DNA of 64,000 nucleotides from Clostridia bacterium (GTDB taxonomy: Bacteria > Bacillota > Clostridia > Christensenellales > Aristaeellaceae): positions 1 through 64,000 of the forward strand of contig JAFRPG010000105.1 of assembly GCA_017429265.1 (NCBI GenBank). The letters are read 5' to 3'. Below are positions 3,201-62,744 of this stretch, piece after piece. Under the pieces are notes generated by a model. The model was not told the DNA's origin and ran no database searches. It saw only the letters and a list, made by a program, of their open reading frames with translations. Position numbers and translations under genes: made by a program. Each line of letters begins with the position of its first letter. Within the stretch, counting starts at the first letter, position 1.

Positions 3201-3583
3201 AACACGAGGGTCGGATGCGCGTCCGACAGAACGATCTCCGTCAGGTTTTTGCAATCGGAGAAGGGGTTGATCCCGATCTCCTCCACGCAGTCCGGGATCG
3301 TGATCCGGTGGAAGTCACAGCTGTGCTCATACTTTGTATACAAGCCGGTGGAGAACGCAAAGTCACCGATGCGCGTCACGGGGATCCCGTCCAGTGTCTC
3401 CGGGATCACGAGATCCTCCGCCGCTCCTGCGTACCTGGCGATCTCCGCGCTCCCGTCCCCGCGGATGACATACTCGAAATCCCCGCATGTGAGCATCTCC
3501 GGTTCCGTATCCTCCGCCACGGCCGCGCAGAATGCCAGCAGCGCCGCGATGAGCAGCCATACGGCCAGTCTTGCCTTCTTCAT
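236..3583 (-). CDS. Secreted BspA-type leucine-rich-repeat protein (LRR_5), 1115 aa
   Basis: The ATG at 3583 (MKKARLAVW...) is preferred over upstream in-frame starts because AGAAGGGAAG lies just ahead and a signal peptide follows (basic MKKAR, hydrophobic core, AVAED). The rest is dozens of ~23-residue LRR_5 units of the type 'F..C.SL..V.LP.GL..IG..AF', as in Treponema/Bacteroides BspA surface proteins. Two blocks start with a 'DGYPVTAI' style linker (near residues 75 and 780), so the protein may be two repeat solenoids joined by a spacer. No LPXTG, C-terminal membrane helix or dockerin is seen, so the anchoring mode is unknown. BspA relatives bind host or matrix proteins; no ligand is claimed here. 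It follows the GH3 gene in the same direction, separated by that gene's terminator. Confidence 0.85.
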   Translation of the reverse strand: MKKARLAVWLLIAALLAFCAAVAEDTEPEMLTCGDFEYVIRGDGSAEIARYAGAAEDLVIPETLDGIPVTRIGDFAFSTGLYTKYEHSCDFHRITIPDCVEEIGINPFSDCKNLTEIVLSDAHPTLVFRSGALYDRRDGALILVLRAMCGSEFSVPEGVTEIRRNAFAYCEKLARVVIPEGVTELRNRTFAACMNLQEVILPDSLRVIGEAAFISCRNMKRIDLPEGLEELGDEVFRWCNALERVTLPDSLKSIGSFTFIHCTNLRELEIPAGVERIGAGFLYGCTALGQVTLSPGNPVLALTDGVLIRTDEKRIVSATPLFSAETYTVPEDIVSIESYAFANLDGLKHVTISESVTQVGSGVFRGCKSLTEASLSAGIGTVPDDMFTNCESLRAVTIPEGITAIGDSAFYNCKSLETVRLPEGLTAVHANAFSVCENLRTVEFPSTLSELGTDAFSRCASLETVSLPDALQEIPKNAFASCRALRKAEIPDGIRRIGENAFRSCGLQSVTLPDSVTEIGSGAFSGCGSLESVRLPAGLTVIADSLFSHCTGLRDITFPTADTVIGDYAFLDCGLTSLDLPENVTALGVQAFRSCENLLRVTVSSRLSEIAPAAFAECRKLLSVTLPSGLTGIGQQAFHSCTSLISVRVPDSVMEIGDGAFYRCAALSYLILPAGVTEFGENMLFGADSVTVVADRDSEAERYCTENRLQYAYTDVFDLGLIKDPPMVSGRYQYEILEDGGVRITRYAGRGGDVTIPDMLDGYPVTAIAAGAFSDTGITGVVIPDSVTSLPEGAFDSCYRLAHVTLPKGLTEIPDRAFSACSLESVVLPAGVTRIGSEAFWSNEEMKTVSIPDGVKEIGDRAFEYCRALEAVSLPDGLTSLGEGAFAFCDSLKTFTLPGGIGSVPPDTFRGKSLESVILCEGITAIESLAFDSCDSLVSVTLPSTLEILGGDAFYSCEALTSVELPMSLSFIGYNPFSACTALREIILPEGHPHFEVEDGLLYGKDTRTLICCPSMRPGEVITIREGTESIGRCAFVSALNAVSVRIPGSVKMIGSYAFQNCIRLESLTVPSSVEQIGYLVFYRCPLLVMTVEKDSYAESFCVREGIRFTVAAAE

Positions 3584-3634
3584 CCCGTTGTCTTCCCTTC
3601 TGTATACAGTCTGTTCAGGCCTTCGCCCGTCAGG

Positions 3635-3663
3635 AAAACCCGCCCGGAGACAATGCTCCGGGC
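3635..3663 (-). terminator. Terminator of the GH3 gene
   Basis: Stem GCCCGGAG (3642-3649) pairs with CTCCGGGC (3656-3663), loop of 6, followed leftward by GGGTTTTCC. It lies 20 bp past the GH3 stop and ahead of the LRR gene start. Confidence 0.7.
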
Positions 3664-3683
3664 AGGTCGGATCTGTGTGCAAT

Positions 3684-38654: not shown

Positions 38655-40019
38655 TTGGCACTCTTTGGGAACAGAAACAACCCACAGCCGTCGATCGTTC
38701 ATCGCACGCTGGATGCGTTCTCCGTGGATGTCATCCAGTGGGAGCCGAAAAACGACGCCGAAGCGTCCGTCATCGCCCACAAGTTTGAGACCGAGGACTT
38801 TCCGTCCGGATCGCAGCTCATCGTCGGCCCCGCCCAGATGGCTGTCTTTGTCAACAACCTGACGGCAGGCAACTCTCTGAACGAACCCGACGGCGGCAAC
38901 GCTCAGATGGCGGTCTTTATCGGTCCTTGCAGAATCAAGCTGGAAACCGGCGAGACGCGCTTTGCCCCGTTCCGCAGCCTGGCCCATGCTCTCACCCGCG
39001 GCGATTCGGCTTACCACAGCACCGTATATTTCATCAATACGACCTTCATGAACGAGCTCAACTGGGGCACTACGGCGCCCATCGTCGTGGAGGATCCCAA
39101 GGAAGAAGTCAACGTACACGTCCGTGCCTTCGGCCTTTTCGGCGCACACATCGAGCACACGGACACGAGCATCGCGGCCGTTCAGGCGCTCAGATTCCTT
39201 CGTAAAGTCGTCGGTACCCGTGCCGATTATACCCGTGATGAACTGATCGGCTTCATGCGTGCCAAGATCCTCGAATACGTGCCGACCCTTCTGGCCGGGA
39301 GCGTGGTCGACCGCCAGATTTCCGTGCTCGAGATCAGCACTAAGCTCTCCGAGTTCTCCGACGAACTGAAGAATAAGCTCACCCCATATTTCGATCAGTT
39401 CGGCCTCACGCTGGACAATTTCTCCTTCCACAGCATCAATGTTCCGGAGGAGGACATCGCCGCGATCAATGAGATGAAGATCGAGCGCAAGCGCCTCCAG
39501 AAGGAAGCCGAGGGGAAGGCGATGGCCATGGATATCGAGTCCGAGGCGATCTCCCGCAAGCGTGAGCGCGAAGGCTACACCTATCAGCAGGAACAGGCCT
39601 ACAACGTCCTCGGTCAGGCTGCCTCCAACGAGGGCACGGCCGGGAGTATCATGGGCACCGGTCTTGGCCTTGGCATGGGGGCCGGCGTAGGTGTTGCCAT
39701 CGGCGGCGGTATGGGAGCGCTTGCCCAGAACATGATACCTCAGGCCCCGCCGTCGGGATCCGGACAGGCGGGCACCGTTCCCTGCCCCGCCTGCGGGAAG
39801 CCCGTGCCTAAGGGTGCAAAGTTCTGCATGGAGTGCGGCACGAAAATGCCGGCCGCTCCCGTCTGTGCCAGATGCGGTTATCAGCTTCCGCCCAACGCGA
39901 AATTCTGTCCGGAGTGCGGCGCTCCCGTGGCTCCGCCCGCTCCTTCCGTTTGCCCAAAGTGCGGCAAGCCCGTGACCCCCGGTGCAAAGTTCTGCATGGA
40001 ATGCGGCGCAACCCTGTAA
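38655..40019 (+). CDS. SPFH-domain protein with three C-terminal zinc ribbons, 454 aa
   Basis: An SPFH (stomatin/prohibitin/flotillin-type) core covers about residues 20-250 of the virion-core/YdjI-like branch; a charged helical segment (270-310) and a Gly-rich hydrophobic hinge (331-358) follow. The tail has three near-identical zinc ribbons (377-394, 404-421, 433-450), each CxxCG...GAKFCxECG-like. No signal peptide; the hinge or partners may hold it at the membrane. TTG start at 38655 with AAAGGAGG 9 bp ahead. First gene of a five-gene operon. SPFH proteins scaffold membrane microdomains; a role here in membrane stress or protein quality control is inference. Confidence 0.85.
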   Translation: MALFGNRNNPQPSIVHRTLDAFSVDVIQWEPKNDAEASVIAHKFETEDFPSGSQLIVGPAQMAVFVNNLTAGNSLNEPDGGNAQMAVFIGPCRIKLETGETRFAPFRSLAHALTRGDSAYHSTVYFINTTFMNELNWGTTAPIVVEDPKEEVNVHVRAFGLFGAHIEHTDTSIAAVQALRFLRKVVGTRADYTRDELIGFMRAKILEYVPTLLAGSVVDRQISVLEISTKLSEFSDELKNKLTPYFDQFGLTLDNFSFHSINVPEEDIAAINEMKIERKRLQKEAEGKAMAMDIESEAISRKREREGYTYQQEQAYNVLGQAASNEGTAGSIMGTGLGLGMGAGVGVAIGGGMGALAQNMIPQAPPSGSGQAGTVPCPACGKPVPKGAKFCMECGTKMPAAPVCARCGYQLPPNAKFCPECGAPVAPPAPSVCPKCGKPVTPGAKFCMECGATL

Positions 40020-40037
40020 GCGAAGGAGGTACAACCC

Positions 40038-40748
40038 ATGAAAAGGATCTGGAAACCGCTGCTGATAATCGGCTGCATCCTCTTTGTTGTCTGGCTGGTT
40101 GTTTATCTGGCCCTCTGCTCCTTCAATTTCGAGAAGGGCAGTCCTGTCGTGATGCTCAGTCTGATCTTCGGTGTGCTCGCCTTTATTCTGACCGCCGTTT
40201 CCCTGTCCGTCACCGGTCTGAACGACATCCGGAACGACGAGGCCTACGCGCTGATGCCGCTGGTGCTGTGCGGGACCTCCCTGACTGTCTCCCTGGTTTT
40301 CAACGCTGTCATCATGCTGGTGGCAAAGGCCAACCCCGATGTGCCCAGATGGCTGATCATCCTAGACATCGCTGCCAACGTCGTCATTCTCGGCTTTGCG
40401 GCCATCGACATGGTCTACGCCATCGCACACATCGGCCGCGTCAGCATCCAGACAGCACAGCTAAGTGACATGCAGTCCAATCCCCTGGGGTTCTCTGCCC
40501 AGCTTGGCAAGCTCCTTGGCATGGCAGGCTCGCCCAAGGTGAAAGCTGCCCTGCTCAGCCTGAAGGAAACCGTCGACATGTCGAGCAACACGACCACGAC
40601 GAACAGCTCCATCCGCGAAAAAGCCTTCGGAGATGCTCTGACCAATCTTGAAAGCAAGCTCATCTGCGGCGCTCCGGAGGACGAGGTCTGCGAACTGGCT
40701 GACACGGCACGCAGAATGTGGCTGGCCCGCAATGCCGTCAGGGGGTGA
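40038..40748 (+). CDS. Four-helix membrane protein of unknown function, 236 aa
   Basis: Hydrophobic helices at about 7-30, 41-62, 74-97 and 104-130, then a soluble tail of ~100 residues with 'SSNTTTTNSSIREKAFGDALTNLESKLI' and 'GAPEDEVCELADTARRMWLARNAV'. No family recognised. ATG at 40038 with GAAGGAGGT, 18 bp after the SPFH gene; 2 bp before the next gene. Probably the membrane partner of the SPFH protein. Confidence 0.8.
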   Translation: MKRIWKPLLIIGCILFVVWLVVYLALCSFNFEKGSPVVMLSLIFGVLAFILTAVSLSVTGLNDIRNDEAYALMPLVLCGTSLTVSLVFNAVIMLVAKANPDVPRWLIILDIAANVVILGFAAIDMVYAIAHIGRVSIQTAQLSDMQSNPLGFSAQLGKLLGMAGSPKVKAALLSLKETVDMSSNTTTTNSSIREKAFGDALTNLESKLICGAPEDEVCELADTARRMWLARNAVRG

Positions 40749-40750
40749 GG

Positions 40751-41569
40751 ATGATGCCCGCCACGGACAGCGGAATGCAATGCGGAGGCTGCGGCTCCGT
40801 GAACGTCACCTTCGATCCCCAACGACGGATGCTGGTGTGCAACCAGTGCGGCCGAGAGGAGTATTACAGCCGCGCGAGCCTGTGCAAAAACAGCAAGGTT
40901 GCCTTCTGTCAGCACAACGCCAAGCAGTTTTTCGCCGACGGCCAGTATGAGATGGCAGAACGTTTTGCGCATGACACGATCAACATCATGCTCGACAACA
41001 CGCCCGCCCTCTACATCATTGCCTTCTACGACGAGTTCACCCGCGGCCGGAACAATGCGCTCAGGGACTTCTTCGCGAAGGTGGCCGACACTCCGCTTGA
41101 ATACGAGGAGGTCACCGACCTGATGGATCTCTTCCTCAGCGCGCCCGGCAGTCTCGGCGAATATGAGCCTCAGGTGATCACGGTTGCTGCCACCAATATG
41201 CAGGATGAGCGCGATGCAGCCCGGCTCTGCGAATTCATCGACAAGCTCTGCCCCTATCTGATCGCCCGGCGTCCGTCCATCAACTACATGACAGAGGAGC
41301 TCGCGGACATGTACCGGGAGCTTGCCGAACACTGCGGCGTCCCGCGGACCTGCTTTGCCCTGCTGAAAGCCATCCGTGAAAACCCCGATTCCCCTTACCG
41401 CGACAATTCTTTCTATCTCAAAGAGCGTTCCTCCTACTTCTATGAGCACTTCGTCGTCCCGATCGGCAAGGTGATCATGGCGATGGCGGAGATCCCGGAG
41501 AAAGATAAGTTTGTCCGCGCCTACCGGAAGTATGCGGAGCAGTACAGGCAGGACGCCCAGATCAGTTGA
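40751..41569 (+). CDS. Zinc-ribbon helical protein of unknown function, 272 aa
   Basis: A single N-terminal zinc ribbon ('MQCGGCGSVNVTF...MLVCNQCGREEYY', about residues 9-36) precedes an all-helical body with TPR-like character ('AERFAHDTINIMLDNTPALYIIAFYDEFTRG'). No catalytic motif seen. Starts at ATG 40751 (or 40754) right after GGGGGTGAGG, 2 bp past the previous stop, so translation is coupled. The zinc ribbon echoes those of the SPFH protein, which suggests both act in one complex. Confidence 0.78.
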   Translation: MMPATDSGMQCGGCGSVNVTFDPQRRMLVCNQCGREEYYSRASLCKNSKVAFCQHNAKQFFADGQYEMAERFAHDTINIMLDNTPALYIIAFYDEFTRGRNNALRDFFAKVADTPLEYEEVTDLMDLFLSAPGSLGEYEPQVITVAATNMQDERDAARLCEFIDKLCPYLIARRPSINYMTEELADMYRELAEHCGVPRTCFALLKAIRENPDSPYRDNSFYLKERSSYFYEHFVVPIGKVIMAMAEIPEKDKFVRAYRKYAEQYRQDAQIS

Positions 41570-41586
41570 AAGAGAGTTGATTTTCC

Positions 41587-43251
41587 ATGTCTGAAGCCAC
41601 GATTCTCAACCGGGTCAACCAAATCGGCAGCGAAGTCAGTGCCCTGAGCAATCAGGTCGGCAGCCTGAGCACGCAAACCAACCGCATCGATAGCAATGTC
41701 AGTGCCATGCGGCAGGAACTCGACCAGCTTCGCACCGATTTCCAGAAGCTGATGCAGGAGCAGCAGCGCTCTGCCGCCCTTCAGCGCGCCATCAGTGAGC
41801 TGGTCCGCGTCCGCCAGGAGATCAGCGACAAGTACGGCAACTATACCGTTGTGCGGCAGACCATGCTCGGCGTGCTGCAGGCCACCGACGTCGCCCTGGT
41901 CAAGAAGTCTACGATCTCCCGTGTCTCCGAGGAGCTCATGCTCTCCACGCCGCAGTACTGGCTCGCGCCATGCCTCGTGGCAGTCTCCGGCTGGATCGCC
42001 AACGACCGCAGCCTGGCCGAGCGTGCCATCGCTGAAGCCATGCGCCGCGATTCCGAAAAGACCGCCCTTGCCATGGCACTGATCTGCCGCCGCAACGGCC
42101 GCATCGACACGGGCTTTGAATGGCTGAGCATCTACTTCTCCAAGCAGAGCGCCGCCAGCATCACCGAGGAAACCTTCACCTACATCGACGCCTATATCAA
42201 CGGCGTGTTCGGTCCTGATGAGAAGCATCGCTGTCAGGGATACATCACCAAGTGGATCGACGAGATCAGGAACAGCGACTCCGGCTTTGAAGAAGCGCAG
42301 GAATCCAAGTGGGAATCCTACTTCAGCACCTATAAGGTCGACACGCGGCCCAGCTTCCCCTTCCTATCAACTGTCAAGGAATTCCCCCAGATCGATAAAT
42401 GCATCGGCGGCCTGAGCTCCTTCGGCACCGTGCGCGGTACCTTCCGGGAGATCTCCGAGGCTTTTATCGACCAGGAGGAAATGAAAAAGACCGTCGATAA
42501 GGAGCTGATCCACCTGATCAGCAACTACGACAAGGCAGAGGTCGAGATCCGCCGTGAGGAGGAGTATCTGCAGCTGGTCAAATCCCTCAACGGCGACGAA
42601 GCGGCGGCCCGCAGTGAAATGGTGCGCCGCGAAGCCCTGCGGCAACAGAAAAAGATGGACTTCATCGAACAGATGGCCGCCGAGATCACCGCCCAGCGCG
42701 AAGGTTCCCCGTCCAAACGCCGTACGGCCGTCACCTTCCTGAGCAACTATATCAACCGGGGCTATGACCGCTACATCGCGAGTGCAAGGGAGTCCTTCCC
42801 CAAGCAGATCACGATCGACGTGAACGGCTGGAGCGGTGTTTCGACCGATGGCAGCGAGGCCGCAGCCCTGACCGCCAGCTATGAGCAGGCGATCAACAGC
42901 CGCCGCCAGGAGGAGATCCACAGGACCTTCACCAGGAAACCACTGCTCATGCTGATCTTTGCCATCATCTTCGTGGTGCTGGGAGCGGCGGGTGTCGGCG
43001 TCGGCCTTGCCATAGCCCGGACTCTGGTCACCGTGCTCGGCGGCGTATTTGTTCTGACCGGCATCGGGCTCTTTATCGGCAGGATCTCCCTGAGCCGCAA
43101 GTCTCGCTGGGTCCAGTATCAGCTGAACAATGACTTCGACACGCAGATCGAGGAGGGTCGCCAGCGGATCGGAGGCGTTCTCACCGAATGGCGCACAGCC
43201 CGCAGCACCATCAAAGCCTTCGATGAGAACGGTGATCACAAAGTTGCATAA
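41587..43251 (+). CDS. Coiled-coil protein with two C-terminal membrane helices, 554 aa
   Basis: The N-terminus is a heptad coiled coil (about 5-80, repeated 'IGSEVSALSNQVGSLSTQTN' type). A helical middle (90-340) follows, a second charged coil (310-380) and two hydrophobic helices at about 453-475 and 480-500, ending in a short basic tail. No known domain recognised. Could be a tethered scaffold. ATG at 41587, 17 bp after the previous gene, fourth in the SPFH operon. Confidence 0.75.
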   Translation: MSEATILNRVNQIGSEVSALSNQVGSLSTQTNRIDSNVSAMRQELDQLRTDFQKLMQEQQRSAALQRAISELVRVRQEISDKYGNYTVVRQTMLGVLQATDVALVKKSTISRVSEELMLSTPQYWLAPCLVAVSGWIANDRSLAERAIAEAMRRDSEKTALAMALICRRNGRIDTGFEWLSIYFSKQSAASITEETFTYIDAYINGVFGPDEKHRCQGYITKWIDEIRNSDSGFEEAQESKWESYFSTYKVDTRPSFPFLSTVKEFPQIDKCIGGLSSFGTVRGTFREISEAFIDQEEMKKTVDKELIHLISNYDKAEVEIRREEEYLQLVKSLNGDEAAARSEMVRREALRQQKKMDFIEQMAAEITAQREGSPSKRRTAVTFLSNYINRGYDRYIASARESFPKQITIDVNGWSGVSTDGSEAAALTASYEQAINSRRQEEIHRTFTRKPLLMLIFAIIFVVLGAAGVGVGLAIARTLVTVLGGVFVLTGIGLFIGRISLSRKSRWVQYQLNNDFDTQIEEGRQRIGGVLTEWRTARSTIKAFDENGDHKVA

Positions 43252-43263
43252 GGAGGAAGAACC

Positions 43264-43443
43264 ATGACGGAAAACAATATGCATACTATGGACGAACCGG
43301 ACGATCTGGACGAACTGGAAAGCCTGTTCGGAACCCCTGAGAGCGAACTGGAACAGGCCGAGAAGATCGAGCTGACTCAAAATCTCGAGGGCTTTGCCAG
43401 CTGTTTCCCGGACTGGGATCTCCATCCGCCGCTTAAATACTGA
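43264..43443 (+). CDS. Small acidic protein closing the SPFH operon, 59 aa
   Basis: ATG at 43264 follows AAGGAGGAAGAACC, a perfect ribosome site 12 bp after the previous stop. The protein starts MTENNMHTMDEPDDLDELES, is rich in Asp and Glu, and ends 'FPDWDLHPPLKY'. No Cys or membrane segment. It is below usual gene-calling length but its position between gene 4 and the terminator, and its strong ribosome site, make it real. A regulatory or adaptor peptide for the operon is a guess. Confidence 0.75.
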   Translation: MTENNMHTMDEPDDLDELESLFGTPESELEQAEKIELTQNLEGFASCFPDWDLHPPLKY

Positions 43444-43465
43444 TTGCCGGGCATAATAAACAACA

Positions 43466-43504
43466 CCGCCGGAGCGATGTGATTCGCTCCGGCGGCGCTT
43501 TTTG
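43466..43504. terminator. Bidirectional terminator between the SPFH operon and fba
   Basis: Perfect 11-bp stem CGCCGGAGCGA (43467-43477) / TCGCTCCGGCG (43484-43494), loop of 6. Rightward it is followed by GCGCTTTTTG; leftward by GTGTTGTTTATT. Confidence 0.9.
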
Positions 43505-44594: not shown

Positions 44595-45338
44595 TCAGCG
44601 GAAGGTTCCGCCCAGCTGCTCCGCAAAGACGACGGGATCGATGAAGCCGAAGCGCGCCTTGCGCAGCGGATCGCGGGGATAGACAACATCGAGAGTCGGG
44701 CCTCCGGGCAGCTCGCCGCGAACCGCCACCTCGTTGACCGGCAGCAGGGAGAGCACGTCGCGCGCGCAGCGGAGGGCCAAGCCGGCAAGGAGGCGGTGCT
44801 CCTCGACGCGGTCGGTGTCATCGCCGAGCGCTATGGCGGTGAAGCCGACCTCCGCGCGGTCGCTGCCCGCGGCGCGTACGGTCACCGACTCCGCGTACCG
44901 GCGCAGATCCGCCAGCGGATCGGCAAAGCGGAGCACCTCCGCGTAAGCCGACGTGTCGCCGCTGAGCACCTTCTTTGCGCGCTCATGCAGGAAATGCCAG
45001 ACCTCGGGAGCCGTCTCGCCGTCGTTGGGCTCCGCATGGGTCAGGACTTCCGTCCAGTCCACACGCTCGTCCGCCCGGCGCCAGTACTCCTCAAAGGGCG
45101 GGATCTGCGGCTCCTCGGGCTTCGTCTCCTCCTGAGGAGGCTCCGGCGCGGGCCGTACCGGCAGTCCGAAGGCGCCGGTCTGGACCGGCCTGGACGCGGG
45201 GTCGGCGGGCTTGCTCTCCGCCTTCGGGTTTCCGGTTGCGTTCACGGCATTGAGGAAGGAAGGCCGTTTGTCCGCTGGCCACAGATCGCTGCAGATCTGA
45301 TAGAGCATGTCAAGCGGGTTCGTGCTCTTCTCGCTCAT
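44595..45338 (-). CDS. Protein of unknown function paired with the AAA+ ATPase, 247 aa
   Basis: The first ~90 residues are Pro/Glu-rich and probably disordered ('PVRPAPEPPQEETKPEEPQI'), followed by a compact alpha/beta part (about 95-247). No family recognised. Its ATG (45338) overlaps the stop of the AAA+ gene by 4 bp (ATGA), so expression is tied to it and an adaptor or substrate-selector role is inferred. No Cys cluster, signal peptide or membrane helix. Confidence 0.75.
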   Translation of the reverse strand: MSEKSTNPLDMLYQICSDLWPADKRPSFLNAVNATGNPKAESKPADPASRPVQTGAFGLPVRPAPEPPQEETKPEEPQIPPFEEYWRRADERVDWTEVLTHAEPNDGETAPEVWHFLHERAKKVLSGDTSAYAEVLRFADPLADLRRYAESVTVRAAGSDRAEVGFTAIALGDDTDRVEEHRLLAGLALRCARDVLSLLPVNEVAVRGELPGGPTLDVVYPRDPLRKARFGFIDPVVFAEQLGGTFR

Positions 45339-47227
45339 GCGTTCTCCCTCCCCTCGGTGTCGGTCGTACAGGTCAGCTCCGGCGGATTGGCGCTCACCTC
45401 AAAGTGGGCGATCGTCACGTCCGCGTTCCCGAGAACCTCGTGGTCAAACAGCCAGCGGGACAGCGGGTTGATCAGCAGGCTCTCCACCTGGTTGCCGATG
45501 CCGCGGCCGCCGTTGGACAGGTCCGCCAGCGCCGCCGCGCGCAGTTCGTCATAAGCTTCGTCCGTCACCTTCAGGCGGATCTGCTTCTGCTCCTGCATGC
45601 GCCGGATGATCTTGTTCACCTGGGCCTGCAGGATCGCCTCGCCCGCCTCCTCGCGGATGTAGTCGAAGACGACGATGTTCTCGCCGATGCGGTTGAGGAT
45701 CTCGGGCCGCCCGAGCTCCAGCTTGAAGTGGTCCTCGATCGCGCCGCGAACGCGCGTCTGGACCTCCTCGTAGGGCATGTCCATGGTCACGTTGGCGTGG
45801 CGCTGACCCATGGCGTCCTTGACATAGATGCCGAGGTTGCTGGTGAAGATGATGATCGTCTCGCCGAAATAGACCGTGTTGCCCTGGCCGTCGGTCATGC
45901 GCCCGTCCTCGAGGATCTGCAGGAACTTGTCGAGGATGTTGGTATGCGCCTTCTCGATCTCGTCGAAAAGCAGGATGCAGAACGGGTTGTTCTTGATCGC
46001 ATTGGTCAGCTGACCGCCGGCTTCATAACCGACGTAGCCGGGCGGTGCGCCCATCAGCTTCTGGTCGGAATGGCTCTGGCCGTATTCGCTCATATCAAAG
46101 CGCACGCAGGCGCTCTCGTCGCCGAAGAGTTTCTCGGCCAGCGCCTTGGCTGTCTCGGTCTTGCCGACGCCGGTGGGACCCGCGTAGAAGAGGACGCCCT
46201 TGGGCTTGGAGGTGGAGGAGGAGGACAGGCCGTTCATGCCCGTCACGGCGCGCTTGACCACGTCGAGCGTCCGCTCGAGCGCGGCGTCCTGGCCCTTGAT
46301 CCGCTTCTGGAAGTCCTCCTTGGCCGTCTTCAGGCTCGCCATCGACAGGCGCTCCCAGGGATTGTCCTTGAAGCCGTACTTGTACAGATCCACCACCTTG
46401 CACAGGTCGCGGATCGCGGTCAGTTCCTGCTTGCCGAGGGTGCGCAGGGCGTCAAGCTCGGTGAAGGTCAGGCCCTCGGTGAGGCCGACAAACTTCTCCT
46501 GCAGCTTGCTCAGCTCGTCGGGGTGATCCAGGTACCAGGGCATATCCGTGCGGTAGACCGCGCCGTCGAAGAAGGTGGCGAAGCGGTTTTCGATCAGGCG
46601 CATGCGCTCCTCGCGGTCCGGCGCCTCGAGCGTGATCGCCCGGCAGGCCGGATTGTTGAGGTAGAACCAGGCGGGAAGGTCATTGCGCTTGTTGACCAGC
46701 ACGATCATCAGGTTCCGCCGCTTCCCCATCGGCGTGCGGACCGAAGCCGCCGACAGCGCCGCCTGAAGCAGGCGGTTGAAGCTGTTCACATCCTGCTGAT
46801 CCATGCGATCCGGGGAGGTGATGTAGAAGCTGGCCAGCTCCAGGATCGTCACCGTCGCGGTCTCCTGCTGCGTCATGGCGCGGAAGATCACGTTGGGCGC
46901 GGTGGTCGCGCCGTTGCCCCGCAGTTCCGCCGGGATCACGCCGTTCTTCAGCTCCGCCCTAGCCGCTTTCGCGTAGGTCCGGAGCATCTCCGCGTCATAG
47001 GGGTTGGTCAGGCCGGTCAGGTTGGAATAGAAGGCCACCGACTGCCAGCCCTGGTCGCGGAAGTAGCCCATCAGATAGCGGGGCAGAGGCACGAGTTCGT
47101 CCTCCCCCACGGACCCGGCCACGGGATAGCGGTACTTGTCGGAGATGTTGCCCTCGAGGATCAGCATCGGTTTGACGGTCGAGAACAGTTCGAGTTCCCG
47201 ATGCCATTTGGAGATCAGGGGTTCCAT
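45335..47227 (-). CDS. AAA+ ATPase: P-loop-less N-terminal AAA module plus ClpB-D2-like module, 630 aa
   Basis: The C-terminal half is a ClpA/ClpB second-ring ATPase: Walker A GPTGVGKT with Lys356, 'MSEYGQSHSDQKLMGAPPGYVG' substrate loop, Walker B 'CILLFDEIEKAH' (Asp422-Glu423), sensor 'FTSNLG', arginine finger 'GRPEILNRIG' and a C-terminal D2-small domain. The first half (about 1-270, 'KPMLILEGNISDKYRYP', 'TVTILELASF', 'MIVLVNKRNDLPAWF') is AAA-like but has no Walker A. No Clp N-domain, M-domain or ClpP loop (IGF) was seen, so unfolding without proteolysis is inferred. ATG at 47227; weakly spaced AAAGGC site. Third gene after psuK-psuG. Confidence 0.85.
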   Translation of the reverse strand: MEPLISKWHRELELFSTVKPMLILEGNISDKYRYPVAGSVGEDELVPLPRYLMGYFRDQGWQSVAFYSNLTGLTNPYDAEMLRTYAKAARAELKNGVIPAELRGNGATTAPNVIFRAMTQQETATVTILELASFYITSPDRMDQQDVNSFNRLLQAALSAASVRTPMGKRRNLMIVLVNKRNDLPAWFYLNNPACRAITLEAPDREERMRLIENRFATFFDGAVYRTDMPWYLDHPDELSKLQEKFVGLTEGLTFTELDALRTLGKQELTAIRDLCKVVDLYKYGFKDNPWERLSMASLKTAKEDFQKRIKGQDAALERTLDVVKRAVTGMNGLSSSSTSKPKGVLFYAGPTGVGKTETAKALAEKLFGDESACVRFDMSEYGQSHSDQKLMGAPPGYVGYEAGGQLTNAIKNNPFCILLFDEIEKAHTNILDKFLQILEDGRMTDGQGNTVYFGETIIIFTSNLGIYVKDAMGQRHANVTMDMPYEEVQTRVRGAIEDHFKLELGRPEILNRIGENIVVFDYIREEAGEAILQAQVNKIIRRMQEQKQIRLKVTDEAYDELRAAALADLSNGGRGIGNQVESLLINPLSRWLFDHEVLGNADVTIAHFEVSANPPELTCTTDTEGRENA

Positions 47228-54176: not shown

Positions 54177-56267
54177 CTACTCCTCAATCACATGGTATCC
54201 GTTGTTTCTGGCCCACTGCACCCACTCGCTGCCCACGGGCACGATCAGCACCATGCCGGGTTCGAAGGCGTCAGGGGCGATAGTTGTGACACAGGCTGGA
54301 ATACGGACAGCGTCAACGTTCGGAAGTCCGGCAAAAGCCTCTGATTCGATATCAGTCACACCTTCGGGCAGGGTAAGAATCCGGTAGATGCATTTGAGCG
54401 AAGCCGAAGTGAAAGATTTGTTGTCGATTCCTATAGCTATCGACGCCCACTGGTCCGGGGTACCGATGTAGGTTACATGGCTCAGCGAATTACACCAAGA
54501 AAAGGCTCCTCTTCCAATCGTGGTGACTCCATTGTACAGCGTAATCTGTGAGAGGCTATCGCAGTCGCGAAACGCATTATCGCCCACGGAAACCACGCCT
54601 GCCGGAAGCATTATGCTTGTCAGAGAATAGCAGGAGCTGAACGCATTGTCGCCAATTGTGATAACCCTCTCAGGCAGTTTGATACCGGTCAGGCTGCCGC
54701 ATCCATCGAATACGCTTGTGCCAATGGCTGTGATATTGTCCGGAAGCGATATGTTTGTCAGATTACCGCAGTCACAGAAGGCATAGTCGGCGAGAGACGT
54801 CACACTGGGAGGAATGGTCAGGCTCTGTTTTCCTTCCGGGCAACGAATCAGGGCCGTCTTTGCCTTGTTGTACAGAACGCCGTCCACTGAAGCATAGTAT
54901 TGATTATCGGTATCTACATCGATATTCGTCATCTGATAACTATACCTGAATGCATCCGCACCGATACTGGTCACAGTGGCGGGGATCATGATACCGGACA
55001 GACCGTAGCATTCCGAGAAAGCGCGGTTTCCGATCGACGTGATGCCGTCATGAAGCACGACAGTTGTGAAATTCTCACAACCCAGGCACGCTCCGTTGGC
55101 GATTTCTGTCACAGTGGAGGGGATCGAGAGACTCTCCTTGCCGCTCGGACAGCAGATCAGAACGGATTTGTCCTTGTTGTACAGGACACCGTCTTCTTCT
55201 GAGAAATACGGATTGTTTTCATCTACTGCGATTCCCGTCAGGTTGCGCATTCCGGAAAACACGGCGTCACCGACGTTGGAGACGCTCGCAGGAAGGGATA
55301 TCTGTGTCACGTTTTCACAATAAGCGAAGATTTCGCCGCCGATGGTCGTGACGCCCTCAGGAATGATCACGTTTGTCAGATTGATGCAGCCACGGAACAC
55401 ATATTCGCCCATGCTTGTGACATTGATCGGCAGTGTCACCTCCGTCAAGCCATCGCAGCTTTCAAACGCTGAACTTCCGATGTAAGTCACACCGGAAGGT
55501 ATGATGATTTCCGTCAGATTTCGGCAGCCGGAAAATGTTCCGGGTTCAATGCGGATGATGCCCGCTGGAATCGTCAGAGAAGCAAGATTGCTGCAACTGC
55601 TGAAGGCGCATTCTCCGATGGATGTCACGCCGGCGGGGATATCAACACCGGTAAGGTTTGAACACAGCATACATGCATATGGACCGATGCTGGTCACGCT
55701 CGGCAGAATCTGAAGCCGGTTCTTCTTCTCAGGGCAACGGACCAGCGTGGTTCCGTCCTTACTGTACAGCACGCCGGCATCAGACATGAATGCAGGGTTA
55801 TTGCTCACTACATAGATACTTTCCATTCCGTTATTCAGGAATGCATTCTGAGAGATATTGGTTACTCCGGCGGGAATTGTGATCTGTTTTAGTTCACAAC
55901 AGTCCATGAAAGCGTAGTCGCCGATGCGGGTCAGACTGGCAGGCAAGTACACGCTGCTTACGTCAAAACCGCTGAACGCACAATCACCGATAGTCGTCAC
56001 ACCGTCTTCGATCACGACGGATCGCACCCGGTCATTCCATAAGCCATACTCAGAGGAAGAGTATCCGCCAACCCATGGCGCTTCAGCGTATTCGTAATCA
56101 TCCATCGCCCCTGATCCGCTGATCACCAGCATCCCGTCATCGCTCAGCGTCCAGGTCAGATTATCTCCGCAGGTTCCGCTGCTTGCCGCCATAGCTGCCC
56201 CACAGCAAAGCATGACCGTCAGCAAAACCATCAGTGCAATAATCAACCGCAAAGCAGAATTCTTCAT
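54177..56267 (-). CDS. Secreted LRR_5 (BspA-like) protein, 696 aa
   Basis: Signal peptide (MKNSALRLIIALMVLLTVMLCCGAAMAAS), an N-terminal 'SGTCGDNLTWTLSDDGMLVISGSG' module also found in the neighbouring 1962-aa protein, then about 20 LRR_5 units. Three units are replaced by a 'YSKDGTTLVRCPEKKNRLQI' type strand pair (near 165, 365 and 460), which recurs in BspA-like proteins. No anchor. Visibly more A/T-rich than genes before 51 kb. ATG at 56267 with GGGAGGATTGTC. Promoter at 56297-56325. Confidence 0.87.
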   Translation of the reverse strand: MKNSALRLIIALMVLLTVMLCCGAAMAASSGTCGDNLTWTLSDDGMLVISGSGAMDDYEYAEAPWVGGYSSSEYGLWNDRVRSVVIEDGVTTIGDCAFSGFDVSSVYLPASLTRIGDYAFMDCCELKQITIPAGVTNISQNAFLNNGMESIYVVSNNPAFMSDAGVLYSKDGTTLVRCPEKKNRLQILPSVTSIGPYACMLCSNLTGVDIPAGVTSIGECAFSSCSNLASLTIPAGIIRIEPGTFSGCRNLTEIIIPSGVTYIGSSAFESCDGLTEVTLPINVTSMGEYVFRGCINLTNVIIPEGVTTIGGEIFAYCENVTQISLPASVSNVGDAVFSGMRNLTGIAVDENNPYFSEEDGVLYNKDKSVLICCPSGKESLSIPSTVTEIANGACLGCENFTTVVLHDGITSIGNRAFSECYGLSGIMIPATVTSIGADAFRYSYQMTNIDVDTDNQYYASVDGVLYNKAKTALIRCPEGKQSLTIPPSVTSLADYAFCDCGNLTNISLPDNITAIGTSVFDGCGSLTGIKLPERVITIGDNAFSSCYSLTSIMLPAGVVSVGDNAFRDCDSLSQITLYNGVTTIGRGAFSWCNSLSHVTYIGTPDQWASIAIGIDNKSFTSASLKCIYRILTLPEGVTDIESEAFAGLPNVDAVRIPACVTTIAPDAFEPGMVLIVPVGSEWVQWARNNGYHVIEE

Positions 56268-56521: not shown

Positions 56522-59500
56522 TCAATACAGACGGTCGATGATCACGTTCGGGCATCCGTCGAAGGCTCCCGCGTCGATCGTTGTCACGCTGGCCGGGATA
56601 TACACATAGACCAGCTTTGTGCAGCCGGCAAAGGCCTGGCTGCCGATGGCGGTGCAGCTGTCCGGAATGATGACCGCCTGGAAGGTAAGCCCGGTAAAGG
56701 CTTCCGCGTCGATGATCTGCAAGCCGGTGGGCAGATGCATCACGGAAAGCGTGCCAAGCGCCGGGATGATGCCGCCGTCCTTGCGCTGAGGCGTGAAGGC
56801 CTCGTTTTCAAAGGCATCGCTGACGTATTCGTAGGCACCAGGCTCGGTGTCGGTCGGAGACAGGACGGCGGCGCGGGTCACCCTGACCGTCTCGCTGTCG
56901 GTGTGGGCCGCGTCGCGGGTGCAGACGCGGGAAGCCGTGACCGCTGTGTTGTCTTCGGACCAGGTGTAGGTGACCTCATCGCTCCAGACATGGCCCAGAG
57001 CGGGGGTCTCAGCCTGCGTCAGGAAGATTGTGCCGCAGACCTCGCAGTGGATTCCGCTGCTCAGGCCGGTGTGCTCACAGGTGGCGGGAACGGCTTCGTC
57101 GATCACATACACGTGCGGGAGCTTCTCCAGGGTCTCCTGCGGGATCAGGATCTCGCCGCAGCGCTCACAGTGACTGCCTTCCGTCAGACCGACAGTCGTG
57201 CAGGTGGGCTCCACGGCTTCGTCGGTGATAAGGATATGGCCCAGGGCCTCCACAGTCTCCTGCGGGACCAGGATCTCACCGCAGCGCCCGCAGTGGCTGC
57301 CCTCGGTGAGACCATGTTCCGTGCAGGCAGGCTCGACCGCTTCGTCGGTGACGGGGATATGGCCCAGGGCGGGGATCTCCACCTGTGCCTGGAAAACCTC
57401 GCCGCAGACGGCGCAGTGCACGCCGCTGGTCAGGCCGGCCGCCGTGCAGGTCGCGGGTACCGGGTCATCCGCCACGTAGGTGTGGGCCACCTTCGGCAGG
57501 ACTTCCTGTGCCGCAAGGGTCTCGCCGCACCGCTCGCAGTGGCTGCCCTCGGTGAGACCGATGGAGGTACAGGTGGGCCCGATCGCCTCGTCGGTCACCG
57601 GAATATGACCCAGCGCTTCGATGTCGGCCAGGGTGACGGTCTGTGCGGTGAATGCCTCGTTGTCGAAGGCTGCGCCGGTGTAGGTGGTCTCGCCGGGAAC
57701 GGTGCAGGTGGGCTCCAGCGTGATCTCGGCTGTCGCGGTGACGGTCTCCGTCTCCGCGTGATCCGCATCATGTGCGCAGACCCGGACGGCGGTGACCTCC
57801 GTATGGTCCTCGTTCCAGGTGTACACGGGTTCGCCCCAGTCATGGCCCAGGGCGGGAATATCCGTCAGGGTCTTGCTCTGCACCTCGAATGCCGGGTTCA
57901 CGAAGGCCGCGCCGGTGTAGGTGGTCTCGCCCATCTCCTTGCAAGAAGGCTGCAGCGTCACAGCCGCGGTTGCGGGGACGGTTTCCGTCTCCACGTGATC
58001 TTCGTCGTTCGCGCAGACGCGGGTCGCGGTCACCTCGGTGTTCCCCCCGTTCCATGTATAGGTGACCTCACCCCAGGCGTGACCCAGTGCGGGGACGATC
58101 TCCTGCGGCACCAGCACCTCGCCGCAGACAGCGCAGTGGCTGCCCTCGGTCAGGCCGGTTTCCTCGCAGGTGGGAGCGACGGCCTCATCCGTCACGGGGA
58201 CATGCTCGTCGCATTCGTCCACCACAAGGATGGTCACCGAATCGGACTTCCCGCTGCCGCCGGCCGTGATGGTCACCTCACCGGGTGCCACAGCGCGTAC
58301 CAGGCCGGACTCGGGGGTCACGATGGCAATGCTCTCATCGCTGCTGGTGAAAGTCACCAAATGGTTTTCCAGCACGTCGCCCCGGGTGGGCGTGACGGCG
58401 GCAGTGAGCTGCATCTGACGGCCTACGATGATCCGGTCCTGCGGTGCTGTGAGTTCCACGGTCTTCACCGGGTAGCACAGGTGGATCACGGCGGTGCGCT
58501 TGATGCCTCGCTCACTGACGGCGGTGATGGTCACATCCCCCGGCTTGGCGGTGGTGACCAGGCCATCGCCGTTCACGGTGGCCAGGTTGGTGTCGGAACT
58601 CTCAAAGCGCAGGGTGACCTCCGCGTCGGAGGGCTCCGGCCAGGCAGTCAGCCGGCAGGTCTCCGTGCGGGCCAGGATCCAGGCTCCCTCGGGAGAGAGG
58701 TTGACTTCGCCATCGGCCCGGTTGACGGTGAGTGTGAGGGTGAAGTCCGTCGCGGCCCGGTAAACGGTAACGGTCACGCTGTCCGTGGCCTGGTCACAGG
58801 TGGCTGTGACGGTCGCGGAGCCGGGCTGCAATCCGGTGATCACCCCGTCCTCCACGGTCAGGACGGCGGGATCGCTGCTGGTCCAGGTGACGGTGGGATC
58901 GTCATAGGTGGGGAAAACGTTGTAAGTCAGGGATCGCACATCCCCAGCGGCCAGGCGGAAATCCTCCTCCAGGGTCAGCTCACGGGCGTCGGAGGGAGAG
59001 ATCTCGTCCAGGTAGACGATGGGCAGCATCTCCCCGTCGGCCCAATAGTCCGCATCGGAGAAGTTATAGCAGTAGATGGTAGGGTTGGAGTTGACAATGT
59101 TGGAGCCGAAAGTATGCACGGATTCGGGGATCACCATCTTGGTGAGGCTGTAGCAGTTATAGAAGGCCTGATCACCGATGCTGGCCACGCCCTCCGGGAT
59201 GGTCACGGCGGTGAGCCCGTGGCAGTACCGGAACGCCTGATTGCCGATACCAATCACGCTGCCCGGGATCGTGATGCTCGTCAAGCCGCCGCAACTGGAG
59301 AAAGCACCGTTGCCGATGCCGGTGACGCTGTCTGGGATCGTGATGCTCGTAAGCCTGCTGCAACCAGAGAAAGCCTGTTCGCCAATGCTGGTCACGCTGG
59401 ACGGGATCGTCATGCTCGTCAGGCTGCTGCAGTTACAGAAAGTATAGTCACCGATACCAGTCACGCCGTCCGGAATCGTGATACTCGTCAGGCTGCTGCA

Positions 59501-62410
59501 GCCAGTGAAAGCCCATTCGCCAATGCTGGTCACGCTGTCCGGGATCGTCACGCTCGTCAGGCTGCTGCAGACATAGAAAGCAGCATAACCAATGCTGGTG
59601 ACGCTGTCCGGGATCGTAATGCTCGTCAGACCGCTGCAGCCATAGAAAGCCCCCTCGCCAATGCTGGTGACGCTGTCCGGGATCGTGATGCTCGTCAGCC
59701 TGCTGCAACCAGTGAAAGCCTGTTCGCCAATGCTGGTCACGCTGGACGGGATCGTGATGCTCGTCAGGCTGCTGCAGTCCCTGAAAGCATAGTCGCCAAT
59801 ACTGGTCACACTGTCCGGGATTGTGATGCTCGTCAAGCCGCTGCAGCCATTGAAAACATAGTTGCCAATGCCGGTCACGCCCTGCGGGATTTCAAAAGTC
59901 TCGACATCGCGATCCACATACGCAAGTTCCAACCCCACAACCTCTTTGTTTTCATAGAGGTAACGCAAGTTGTAGTTTGTGTCAGGTACACGGAATGAAT
60001 CACCATGCTCGCTCCGATAGTAAGCGGCAGCACTCTCCATATTGCAGAGGACTGTGCCCGAATAACCGATAAAGGCGTAATTCCCATTGCTGCCAAAGGT
60101 CACCACGCTGTCCGGAATCGTGATGCTCGTCAGGCTGCTGCAGTTATAGAAAGCAGAGTAGCCAATATCGGTCACGCTCTCAGGGATCGTGATGCTCGTC
60201 AGGCTGCTGCACAAGAAGAAAGCATAGTTGCCAATGCCGGTTACGCTGTTCGGGATCGTAATGCTCGTCAGGCTGCTGCAGTCAGAGAAAGCATATTCGC
60301 CAATGCCGGTCACGCCCTGTGGGATTTCAAAAGACTCGACATCGCGATCCACATACGCAAGTTCCAGCCCCACAACCTCTTTGTTTTCATAGAGGTAACG
60401 CAAATCATAGTTCGTGTCTGGTACACGGAATGAATCACCATGCTCGCTCCGATAGTAAGCGGCAGCGCTCTCCATATTGCAGAGGACTGTGCCCGAATAA
60501 CCGCTAAAGGCGTAATTCCCATTGCTGCCAAAGGTCACCACGCTGTCCGGGATCGTGACGCTTGCCAGACTGTTGCAGTTTGAGAAAACAGAGTAGCCAA
60601 TATCGGTCACGCTCTCAGGGATCGTGATGCTCGTCAGGCTGCTGCAATCGTAGAAAGCACCGTTGCCAATGCCGGTCACGCTGTTCGGGATCGTGATGTT
60701 CGTCAGGCTGCTGCAATTTCTGAAAGCATAGTTGCCGATATCGGTCACGCTGTTCGGGATCGTGATGCTCGTCAGGCTCCTGCAGTCAGAGAAAGCATAT
60801 TCGCCAATACCGGTCACGCTGTCCGGGATCGTGACGCTCGTCAGGCTGCTGCAGCCATAGAAAGCAGTGTTGCCAATGGCGGTCACACCCAATGGGAGCT
60901 CAACAGTCTCGGCATCGCGATCCACATACACAAGTTCCAGACCCACCACCTCATCGTTTTCATAGAGGTAGCGCAATTCATAATTTGTGTCAGGCACGCG
61001 GAAAGGATCTCCGTGCTCGCTCCGATAGTAAGCGGCAGCGCTCTCCAAATTGCAGAGAACTGCGCCTGAATAATTGCTGAAGGTGTAATTGCCATCGCTG
61101 CCAAAGGTCACCACACTGTCCGGGATCGTGATGCTTGCCAGACTGCTGCAGCCAGCGAAAGCATAGTAGCCAATGCTGGTCACGCTGTCCGGGATCGTGA
61201 TGTTCGTCAGATTGTTGCAGTAAGAGAAAGCATCATAGCCAATACTGGTCACACCCTGAGGAATTGTGATACTTGTCAGGCTGCTGCAGCCGGAGAAAGC
61301 TACATTCCCAATTCTGATCACGCTGTTTGGAATTGTGATGCTTGTCAGGTTTCGACAGTCCTCGAAAAGAGAATCACTGATAACGGTCACACCCTCAGGA
61401 ATCGTGACACTGATCAGGCTGTCGCAGCATTGAAAAGCCATTTCACCGATGCTGATCACGCCCGCCGGAATCGTAACGCTTGTAAGACTGTCACAATTGG
61501 AGAACGCATAGTATTTTATGCTGGTCACACCCTCAGGGACCGCTACGGTCTCAGCATCGGGATCCGCACGCACGAATTCCAATCCCGTCTCCTCATTGTT
61601 TTCATAGAGGTAACGCAATTCATAGTTCGTGTCAGGCACGCGGAAAGAATCTCCGTGCTCGCCCCGGTGATGAGCGGCGGCGCTCTCCTGGCTGCAGAAA
61701 ACAGTGCCTGAATAACCGTCAAAGGCGTAATTGCCATTGCTGTCAAAGGTCACCACGCTGTCCGGGATCGTGATACTTGCCAGACTGCTGCAGCCATTGA
61801 AGACACCGTAACCAAGGTCAGTCACGCTATCAGGGATCGTAATGCTCGTCAGGCCGCTGCAGCCAGAGAAAGCAGAATCGCTAATGGCGGTCACGCCGTC
61901 CGGGATCGTGACGCTTGTCAGGCTGCTGCACCCAGAGAAAGCGGAATCGCCAATGCCGGTCACGCTGTCCGGGATCGTGACGCTCGTCAGGCTGCTGCAA
62001 TCAGTGAAAGCATAGTCGCCAATGCTCGTCACACTCATGGGGATCGTGATGCTCGTCAGGCCGCTGCAGCTATTGAAAGCCTCTCTCCCGATTTCGGTCA
62101 CGCTCTCGGGAATCGTGATGCTCGTCAGATTGCCGCAGCCAAAGAACGCACAATCACCGATCCCGGTGATCCCGTCCCCGATCACAATGGCGGTCGCGGA
62201 ATTGCCCCACGGTACAGAATACCATTCATTGTCCCACGTATTGCCGTCTATCGCACCCTGCCCGCTGATGGTCACGGTGCCGTCATCATCCAGCGTCCAC
62301 GTAAACGTGCCGTCTGTGCCGCTGGATTCCGCTGTCGCCGCCGCGCAGCATAACACCATCGTCATCAAAACCGCCAGCCGGATCATCCACCGGAAAGCCG
62401 AATTCTTCAT
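56522..62410 (-). CDS. Giant secreted LRR_5 protein with Ig-like and CxxCG modules, 1962 aa
   Basis: The ATG at 62410 (GAGGAGG ahead) starts a signal peptide ([29 protein letters not shown]). Next come LRR_5 arrays split by four copies of a ~70-residue module ('[20 protein letters not shown]', about residues 221-289, 435-509, 626-700, 771-845). From about 1130 three bacterial Ig-like (Big_2-type) domains follow, then six ~41-residue modules '[15 protein letters not shown]...ALGH' and three ~78-residue 'YTWN...V..TRVC' modules, and two closing LRR units. No anchor motif. Proteins of this layout are surface adhesins or mucin binders in gut Clostridia; binding target unknown. The upstream 18-bp palindrome suggests repression. 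Confidence 0.9.
59875..61750 (-). repeat. Four-fold segmental repeat inside the giant LRR gene
   Basis: The ~220-bp module recurs at about 59875-60096, 60310-60531, 60883-61104 and 61543-61746. The first two copies (435 bp apart) differ at only about a dozen positions by eye, the others more, which points to recent unit duplication. Between them run 69-bp LRR units, also near-identical at 59448-59830. Confidence 0.85.
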
Positions 62411-62434
62411 ACAGCAAAACCTCCTCGGGATAAG

Positions 62435-62471
62435 GTAGTACAATTGTACTACATTTGCGTCAGAGAGGCAA
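62435..62471 (-). promoter_or_regulatory. Promoter of the giant LRR gene with an 18-bp palindromic operator
   Basis: Read leftward: TTGCCT (62466-62471), 17 bp, TACAAT (62443-62448). The perfect palindrome GTAGTACAATTGTACTAC (62435-62452) sits on the -10, a position suited to repression. Confidence 0.65.
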
Positions 62472-62519
62472 CCCCGACTTTTGCTGTCAAATCTTCCCGA
62501 AACGGCATATCCACGGTCT

Positions 62520-62744
62520 TTATTCTTTCCGGTATTCCAGCAGATCCCCCGGCTGGCAGTCCAGGGCCTCACACAGCGCCGCCAGGGTGCCGATGCGGAT
62601 GGCTTTGGCCTTGCCCGTCTTCAGGATGGACATGTTGGCCAGGGTGATGCCCACCCGCTGGGAGAGCTCGGTCAGGCTCATTTTGCGCTTCGCCAGCATG
62701 ACGTCGATGTTGAAGATGATCTCGCCCTTTTCTTCTCTTTCCAT
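62520..62744 (-). CDS. Cro/CI-type HTH regulator (YozG-like), 74 aa
   Basis: Compact DNA-binding protein: '[61 protein letters not shown]' is an entire single HTH_3 domain. Such 70-aa regulators commonly sit next to DUF2975 membrane proteins, as here. ATG at 62744, GGGGTGAG site, 12 bp after the DUF2975 stop. It lies directly ahead of the giant LRR gene and is a candidate for the palindrome at 62435. Confidence 0.9.

Follow-up and report, generated by a model that had tools for sequence, protein, structure and literature searches.

What is the function of five closely spaced genes, g1 to g5, lying together in a 64,000-nucleotide stretch of a Clostridia bacterium genome (order Christensenellales; contig JAFRPG010000105.1, positions 1 to 64,000; hereafter the window)? 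An earlier note on this DNA suggested that they encode a membrane-bound assembly serving envelope stress, defence or protein quality control. From sequence comparison, we put a probability of about 0.5 on the operon being a membrane immune-type cassette that is self-contained and horizontally mobile, and its use would probably be that of an undescribed, anti-phage defence system. Defence is the most likely use because of the patchy distribution, the signs of transfer, the mobile carriers of g4-g5 and the TIR, HEPN and SIR2 partners of the g1-g2 core, evidence that comes from other arrangements of the parts and not from the five-gene cassette itself. The best reading is a mobile membrane platform, built on an SPFH protein, whose effectors can be exchanged.

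The five genes form a conserved unit. A g4 profile scanned over one genome for each GTDB species found 51 further loci, some of them near-copies and three (L076, L078 and L092) on the same contigs as loci of an earlier order-level search; profiles were required, single-sequence searches having missed the family in most genomes. All five genes are present in 39 of these loci, 37 in the window order and two (L092 and L095) permuted to g3-g4-g5-g1-g2, which rules out chance neighbours. The set proposed in the earlier note is thus found in the same order in other Clostridia and also beyond them, with hosts in Lachnospiraceae, Oscillospiraceae, Christensenella, Erysipelotrichaceae and Atopobium. 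Six loci are truncated where the contig or locus ends (L063, L064, L066, L082, L085 and L102), two lack g2 (L054 and L055), one lacks both g1 and g2 (L059), one is a variant with a long g3 (L098), and two have another layout (L091 and L101). Within 10 kb of the loci, no sixth gene recurs beyond generic transporters and regulators; because no outside neighbour recurs, the unit ends at five, and a larger operon is ruled out. Pairwise distances of g1 to g4 correlate (r 0.51-0.87), with g3-g4 at 0.83.

In the window, the positions of the five open reading frames and the gaps between them (18, 2, 17 and 12 bp, in order) match those first reported exactly. Ribosome-binding sites are clear 5' of g1, g2 and g5. 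The closing bidirectional terminator is also present; it is strong, and it is common to the five-gene set and a convergent aldolase gene. The single promoter that had been claimed found no support: a consensus scan gave no sigma-70-like site upstream of g1, and its two matches elsewhere are at chance level.

The cassette is rare. Real orthologues within the order were found in three of 297 genomes (about 1%; G267, G069 and G162), and the cassette is complete at each of these loci, with G162 arranged as g3-g4-g5-g1-g2. A g4 match in G009 (L002) was rejected as chance, there being no operon at the locus. Queries with g3 and g4 found nothing in 11 further genomes of the same genus, none of 60 relatives has a second g4, and a scan of the phylum gave 1 clear further match in 398 genomes. 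In the g4 tree, the window groups with a Christensenella entry inside a strongly supported clade, mostly of Lachnospiraceae and Oscillospiraceae, that also includes Atopobium deltae (Actinomycetota); L076 and L078, from the window's own order, stand in another clade, and L092 lies outside that one. GC content at third codon positions (GC3) is 0.63-0.80 in the five cassette genes versus 0.84-0.92 in seven other window genes. The tree position and the lower GC3 fit a later arrival of the cassette. In relatives, the regions flanking it are found on separate contigs, so that no empty site is readable. We take the cassette to be horizontally mobile.

The first two proteins were both read correctly in the earlier note. 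g1 is an SPFH/Band-7 protein (Pfam PF13421, Band_7_1, at 2.2e-26) with a glycine-rich linker and three C-terminal zinc ribbons (Zn_Ribbon_1 at 1.6e-24), and is predicted to be a membrane scaffold. Hydropathy gives it no N-terminal membrane anchor. g2 shows four hydrophobic helices within residues 1-135 and a C-terminal tail of about 100 amino acids, and adjoins g1 both in five-gene loci and in separate g1-g2 cores. It is likely the partner and membrane anchor of g1. In Bacillus subtilis, YdjI-type SPFH proteins have no membrane anchor of their own and depend on partner proteins to keep them at the membrane (PMC8581546), which would make g2 the natural anchor of g1.

g3 carries a TFIIB-like zinc ribbon (a weak PF08271 match), and its AlphaFold model (predicted local distance difference test, pLDDT, 94.5) combines the ribbon with a TPR-like helical array, in agreement with its earlier description as a zinc-ribbon helical protein. 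The best fold matches include TPR proteins and designed helical repeats. g3 may act as an adaptor.

g4 begins with a coiled coil (residues 4-98) modelled as a 95-residue helix, with a TPR-like region at about 80-228. Its C-terminal half is helical, and the AlphaFold model (pLDDT 86.8) places a membrane hairpin at 451-505. The coiled coil claimed at the outset therefore stands; the "two membrane helices" are a single hydrophobic stretch by hydropathy (446-503), which the model reads as a hairpin. Searches of Pfam, NCBIfam and PADLOC gave no family beyond coiled-coil noise, a fold search of the model against the PDB and viral models gave nothing significant, and a profile search against solved structures returned coiled coils and nothing else. 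We regard g4 as the signature protein of the cassette and a candidate effector, likely acting at the membrane.

g5 is indeed a small acidic protein, with 16 D/E versus 2 K/R, and ends in the motif LTQNLEGFASCFPDWDLHPP (family form GFAsCFPxWDLhPP). It adjoins g4 in 46 of the 51 further loci as well as in the window, and the motif is absent from every non-g5 open reading frame of the loci examined. Pfam and NCBIfam hold no match to it. g5 is a signature small protein, and probably a regulator or linear-motif ligand of g4. PHROGs gave no convincing family for any of g1 to g5, and by Pfam and NCBIfam the five-gene variant encodes no enzyme.

The permuted loci divide the cassette into two halves, g1-g2 and g3-g4-g5, each of which is found elsewhere. 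The g1-g2 core (the pair, or part of it at contig ends) occurs in L034-L037, L039, L149-L155, L157-L161, L163, L165 and L166, and L156 joins the core to a g4-like protein. The cores mostly adjoin zinc-ribbon proteins with varied C-termini; the third element they share is a zinc-ribbon/TPR protein, which holds the output domain in many cores without g4. In ten loci this partner has a TIR domain, and L158 has a separate TIR gene. A SIR2_2 gene (4.5e-7) is added in L039, and small HEPN-like proteins with an Rx4-6H motif are present in L151, L153, L157 and L160. Matches above Pfam cut-offs are SIR2_2 in L039 and TIR in L154 and L158. Away from the cores TIR domains are rare: across 24 genomes (about 44 Mb), 14 of 41 TIR_2 matches lie at most 5 kb from a g1-g2 core, versus about 0.25 expected by area (our own count and arithmetic). 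All 13 core-linked TIR proteins examined retain a putative catalytic glutamate motif (WVKNEW-like or WTEREL). L098 (3221-7097, +; Oscillospiraceae) encodes a g3-like protein of 535 amino acids with an N-terminal zinc ribbon and, by eye, an apparent degenerate TIR-type stretch with no Pfam match; it is possibly an intermediate between both layouts. Separately, in L037 (3753-11065, -) the SPFH, four-helix and TIR genes adjoin, by eye, a gene for a TraG/VirD4-like coupling protein, which suggests that this core sits in a conjugative element.

g4 and g5, the two signature families, are also found together in a second gene set, one that includes an AAA ATPase. The g4 search matched the Streptococcus satellite phage Javan368, plasmids of Komagataeibacter and Comamonas, and a chromosome-sized Fusobacterium record. 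The order is g4, a g5-like protein of 58-70 amino acids, a protein of about 170 amino acids and the AAA ATPase, with a protein of about 160 amino acids at one end (Table 1). The g5-like C-termini read LPSWDIVPP, FPAWNLEPP, PAWDLLP and similar. In Javan368, the g5-like open reading frame (L167, 11409-11585, +) is unannotated, encodes 58 amino acids and ends in LPSWDIVPPQLLVRRKRQK. The genes of this set occupy there the end opposite the integrase, which in satellite phages is an accessory position. L091 and L101, both from Acidobacteriota, show the same arrangement up to the ends of their contigs. The set occurs on plasmids and chromosomes, and two further features of it were seen: several of its proteins terminate in RR.(I/V)L-type tails, and in L091 (7870-9426, -; Thermoanaerobaculia) a caspase-like protein, recognized by eye, adjoins the g4-g5-AAA genes.

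Table 1. Coordinates of the cassette in the window and of the related AAA-ATPase gene set in other loci
Feature	Position	Strand	Description
g1	38655..40019	+	454 aa, TTG start
g2	40038..40748	+	236 aa
g3	40751..41569	+	272 aa
g4	41587..43251	+	554 aa
g5	43264..43443	+	59 aa
Bidirectional intrinsic terminator	43462..43499		16-pair stem, T tract on both strands
AAA set	L168 8459-12994; L169 1106-5629; L171 8953-13426		about 160 aa, g4, g5-like, about 170 aa, AAA ATPase

In the mechanism we propose, g1 would oligomerise beneath the membrane, anchored by the four helices of g2, and this platform would sense when the membrane is disturbed, for example by phage entry, lysis proteins or depolarisation. 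g3, with its zinc ribbon and TPR-like array, would dock on the platform like the zinc-ribbon/TPR part of the TIR variants, and would hold g4, whose coiled coil and TPR-like arm are predicted to end in a membrane hairpin. On activation, g4 would be freed from the acidic g5 peptide, its likely restraint, and would perturb the membrane or assemble there, so that the infected cell stops growing. In the other variants, NAD-cleaving TIR or SIR2 enzymes or RNA-cleaving HEPN enzymes would receive the signal of this platform; in the window variant, the output role appears to be split between g3 as adaptor and g4 with its hairpin. More tentatively, and at somewhat less than even odds, the cassette may represent a new immunity class, in which an SPFH/four-helix sensor platform takes exchangeable partners (zinc-ribbon/TPR-TIR, SIR2, HEPN or g3-g4-g5) and g4-g5 also serve a plasmid- and phage-satellite-borne AAA-ATPase system.

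Several known systems share individual features with this arrangement. As in the TIR/SIR2/HEPN abortive-infection systems (Thoeris, SPARTA/SPARSA and HEPN modules), partners are exchanged in a modular way, the core is linked elsewhere to TIR, SIR2-like or HEPN-like genes, and g4-g5 travel on mobile elements; unlike them, the five-gene variant encodes neither a NADase nor a nuclease. Such exchange of parts is a property of modular conflict systems (PMC7159879), and no SPFH platform was found in the text of that survey. The AAA protein of the second set matches the PADLOC model of IetA (2e-34) in its AAA domain only; IetAS pairs an AAA ATPase with a serine protease, whereas the second set has no protease gene and the five-gene cassette has neither component. 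A scan of g1 to g4 against PADLOC-DB 2.0.0 gave nothing for g1, g2 and g3 and coiled-coil-level matches for g4 (best 6e-4). The open literature searched contained no paper on the five-gene set, nor on SPFH proteins combined with TIR or defence. Within the sources searched, the cassette matches no characterised operon, and its description as a candidate for an undescribed system is upheld.

A number of observations weigh against a defence function. The g3 profile matches zinc-ribbon/TIR proteins weakly (L154 at 2e-9, L150 at 1.5e-5), and a stricter domain search returned no match, leaving these matches as the link between g3 and TIR. The HEPN pEK499_p136 matches, to three of the four small HEPN-like proteins, are likewise weak and below the Pfam cut-off. 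Other core partners, of zinc-ribbon/LRR and zinc-ribbon/coiled-coil type, are not classical effectors. The five-gene loci have no recurrent defence neighbours, and the viral contigs contained no five-gene locus, nor relatives of g1 or g4. The C-terminal half of g4 aligns with several ClyA-type alpha-pore-forming components over long helices around a hydrophobic hairpin (SmhB, Z 8.7; AhlB, 8.3; MakA, 8.2; also YaxA; Z 7-9 overall; root-mean-square deviation 6.2-10 Å), but the chemoreceptor 2ch7 scores 8.8, so the modelled resemblance lies within noise for helical proteins and is only a hint. Unlike these toxins, g4 lacks an export signal, and its action would be from within the cell. Finally, the characterised YdjI-type SPFH protein serves membrane maintenance (PMC8581546).

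This last point leads to the strongest alternative, which we nevertheless consider unlikely: an envelope-stress scaffold in which the g1-g2 platform recruits g3 to g5 to repair or fluidise the membrane, as YdjI does with YdjG and YdjH, with no role in defence. The cassette shares features with pspA-ydjGHI (PMC8581546, PMC11237479). g1 and YdjI are both SPFH proteins with a C-terminal zinc finger and no anchor, the SPFH gene lies beside membrane partners, and zinc-ribbon proteins are encoded in the operon. YdjI requires two membrane partners to place PspA (PMC8581546), g2 would play an analogous role by position, and the lack of an encoded enzyme in the five-gene variant suits this explanation. 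However, PspA (ESCRT-III-like), the TPM domain of YdjH and the YpeB-like NTF2 domain of YdjG are all missing from g1 to g5, and with no sixth gene recurring, an ordinary PspA-YdjGHI operon is ruled out. That operon in turn has no counterpart to g3, g4 or g5. The sporadic, mobile distribution of the cassette, the plasmid and satellite carriers of g4-g5 and the TIR linkage of the core also argue against a maintenance role, as does the separate YdjI-like SPFH protein with a TFIIB-zinc-ribbon partner that many relatives have.

A second alternative, improbable in our view, is competition or self-killing in gut bacteria: the cassette would sense membrane-active bacteriocins or other attack and arrest the cell, independently of phage. 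Most loci do come from dense rumen and gut communities, and TIR and HEPN effectors are used in several conflict types (PMC7159879, PMC3710099), but the cargo position of g4-g5 in the phage satellite favours conflict with phage, and the cassette comes with no gene for export or immunity. A third alternative starts from the role of SPFH proteins, HflK/C among them, in organising proteases: a quality-control or membrane-protease adaptor whose SPFH ring encloses a client-handling complex, g3 and g4 serving as TPR adaptors and the AAA set as the unfoldase version. It would accommodate the TPR-like folds of g3 and g4 and the AAA ATPase of the second set, but is the least probable of all, given that no protease gene recurs near the cassette, that TIR, SIR2 and HEPN-like partners would be unexpected and that the distribution is sporadic and not that of a housekeeping system. 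Among the three functions first proposed, defence is favoured by the linkage of core and effectors, the g4-g5 carriers and the patchy distribution.

To our knowledge, bacterial SPFH proteins have few known jobs, and we know of no earlier defence family built on an SPFH scaffold. If the membrane immune platform is confirmed, this ancient fold, shared by stomatin, prohibitin and flotillin, would join the sensors of bacterial immunity, two nameless families (g4 and g5) would be linked in two unrelated system layouts, and numerous zinc-ribbon/TIR genes linked to cores in gut Clostridia would be placed within a system. The proposal is simple to test with the compact set in cultured Butyrivibrio (sp. 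X503 and INlla18; L052 and L099) and the related genes of a small Streptococcus satellite, and the GFAsCFPxWDLhPP tail of g5 offers a concrete, mutable handle.

Elsewhere in the window, a 247-amino-acid protein without a family (44595-45338, -) is paired with the gene of a 629-amino-acid AAA+ protein (45335-47227, -) whose second domain is ClpB-like and whose N-terminus is unrelated. This pair (44595-47227) was considered as a member of the cassette and ruled out, as it does not recur beside other loci. The same 64 kb also encode three very long leucine-rich-repeat proteins that appear BspA-like by eye (236-3682, 54177-56267 and 56522-62572, all -).

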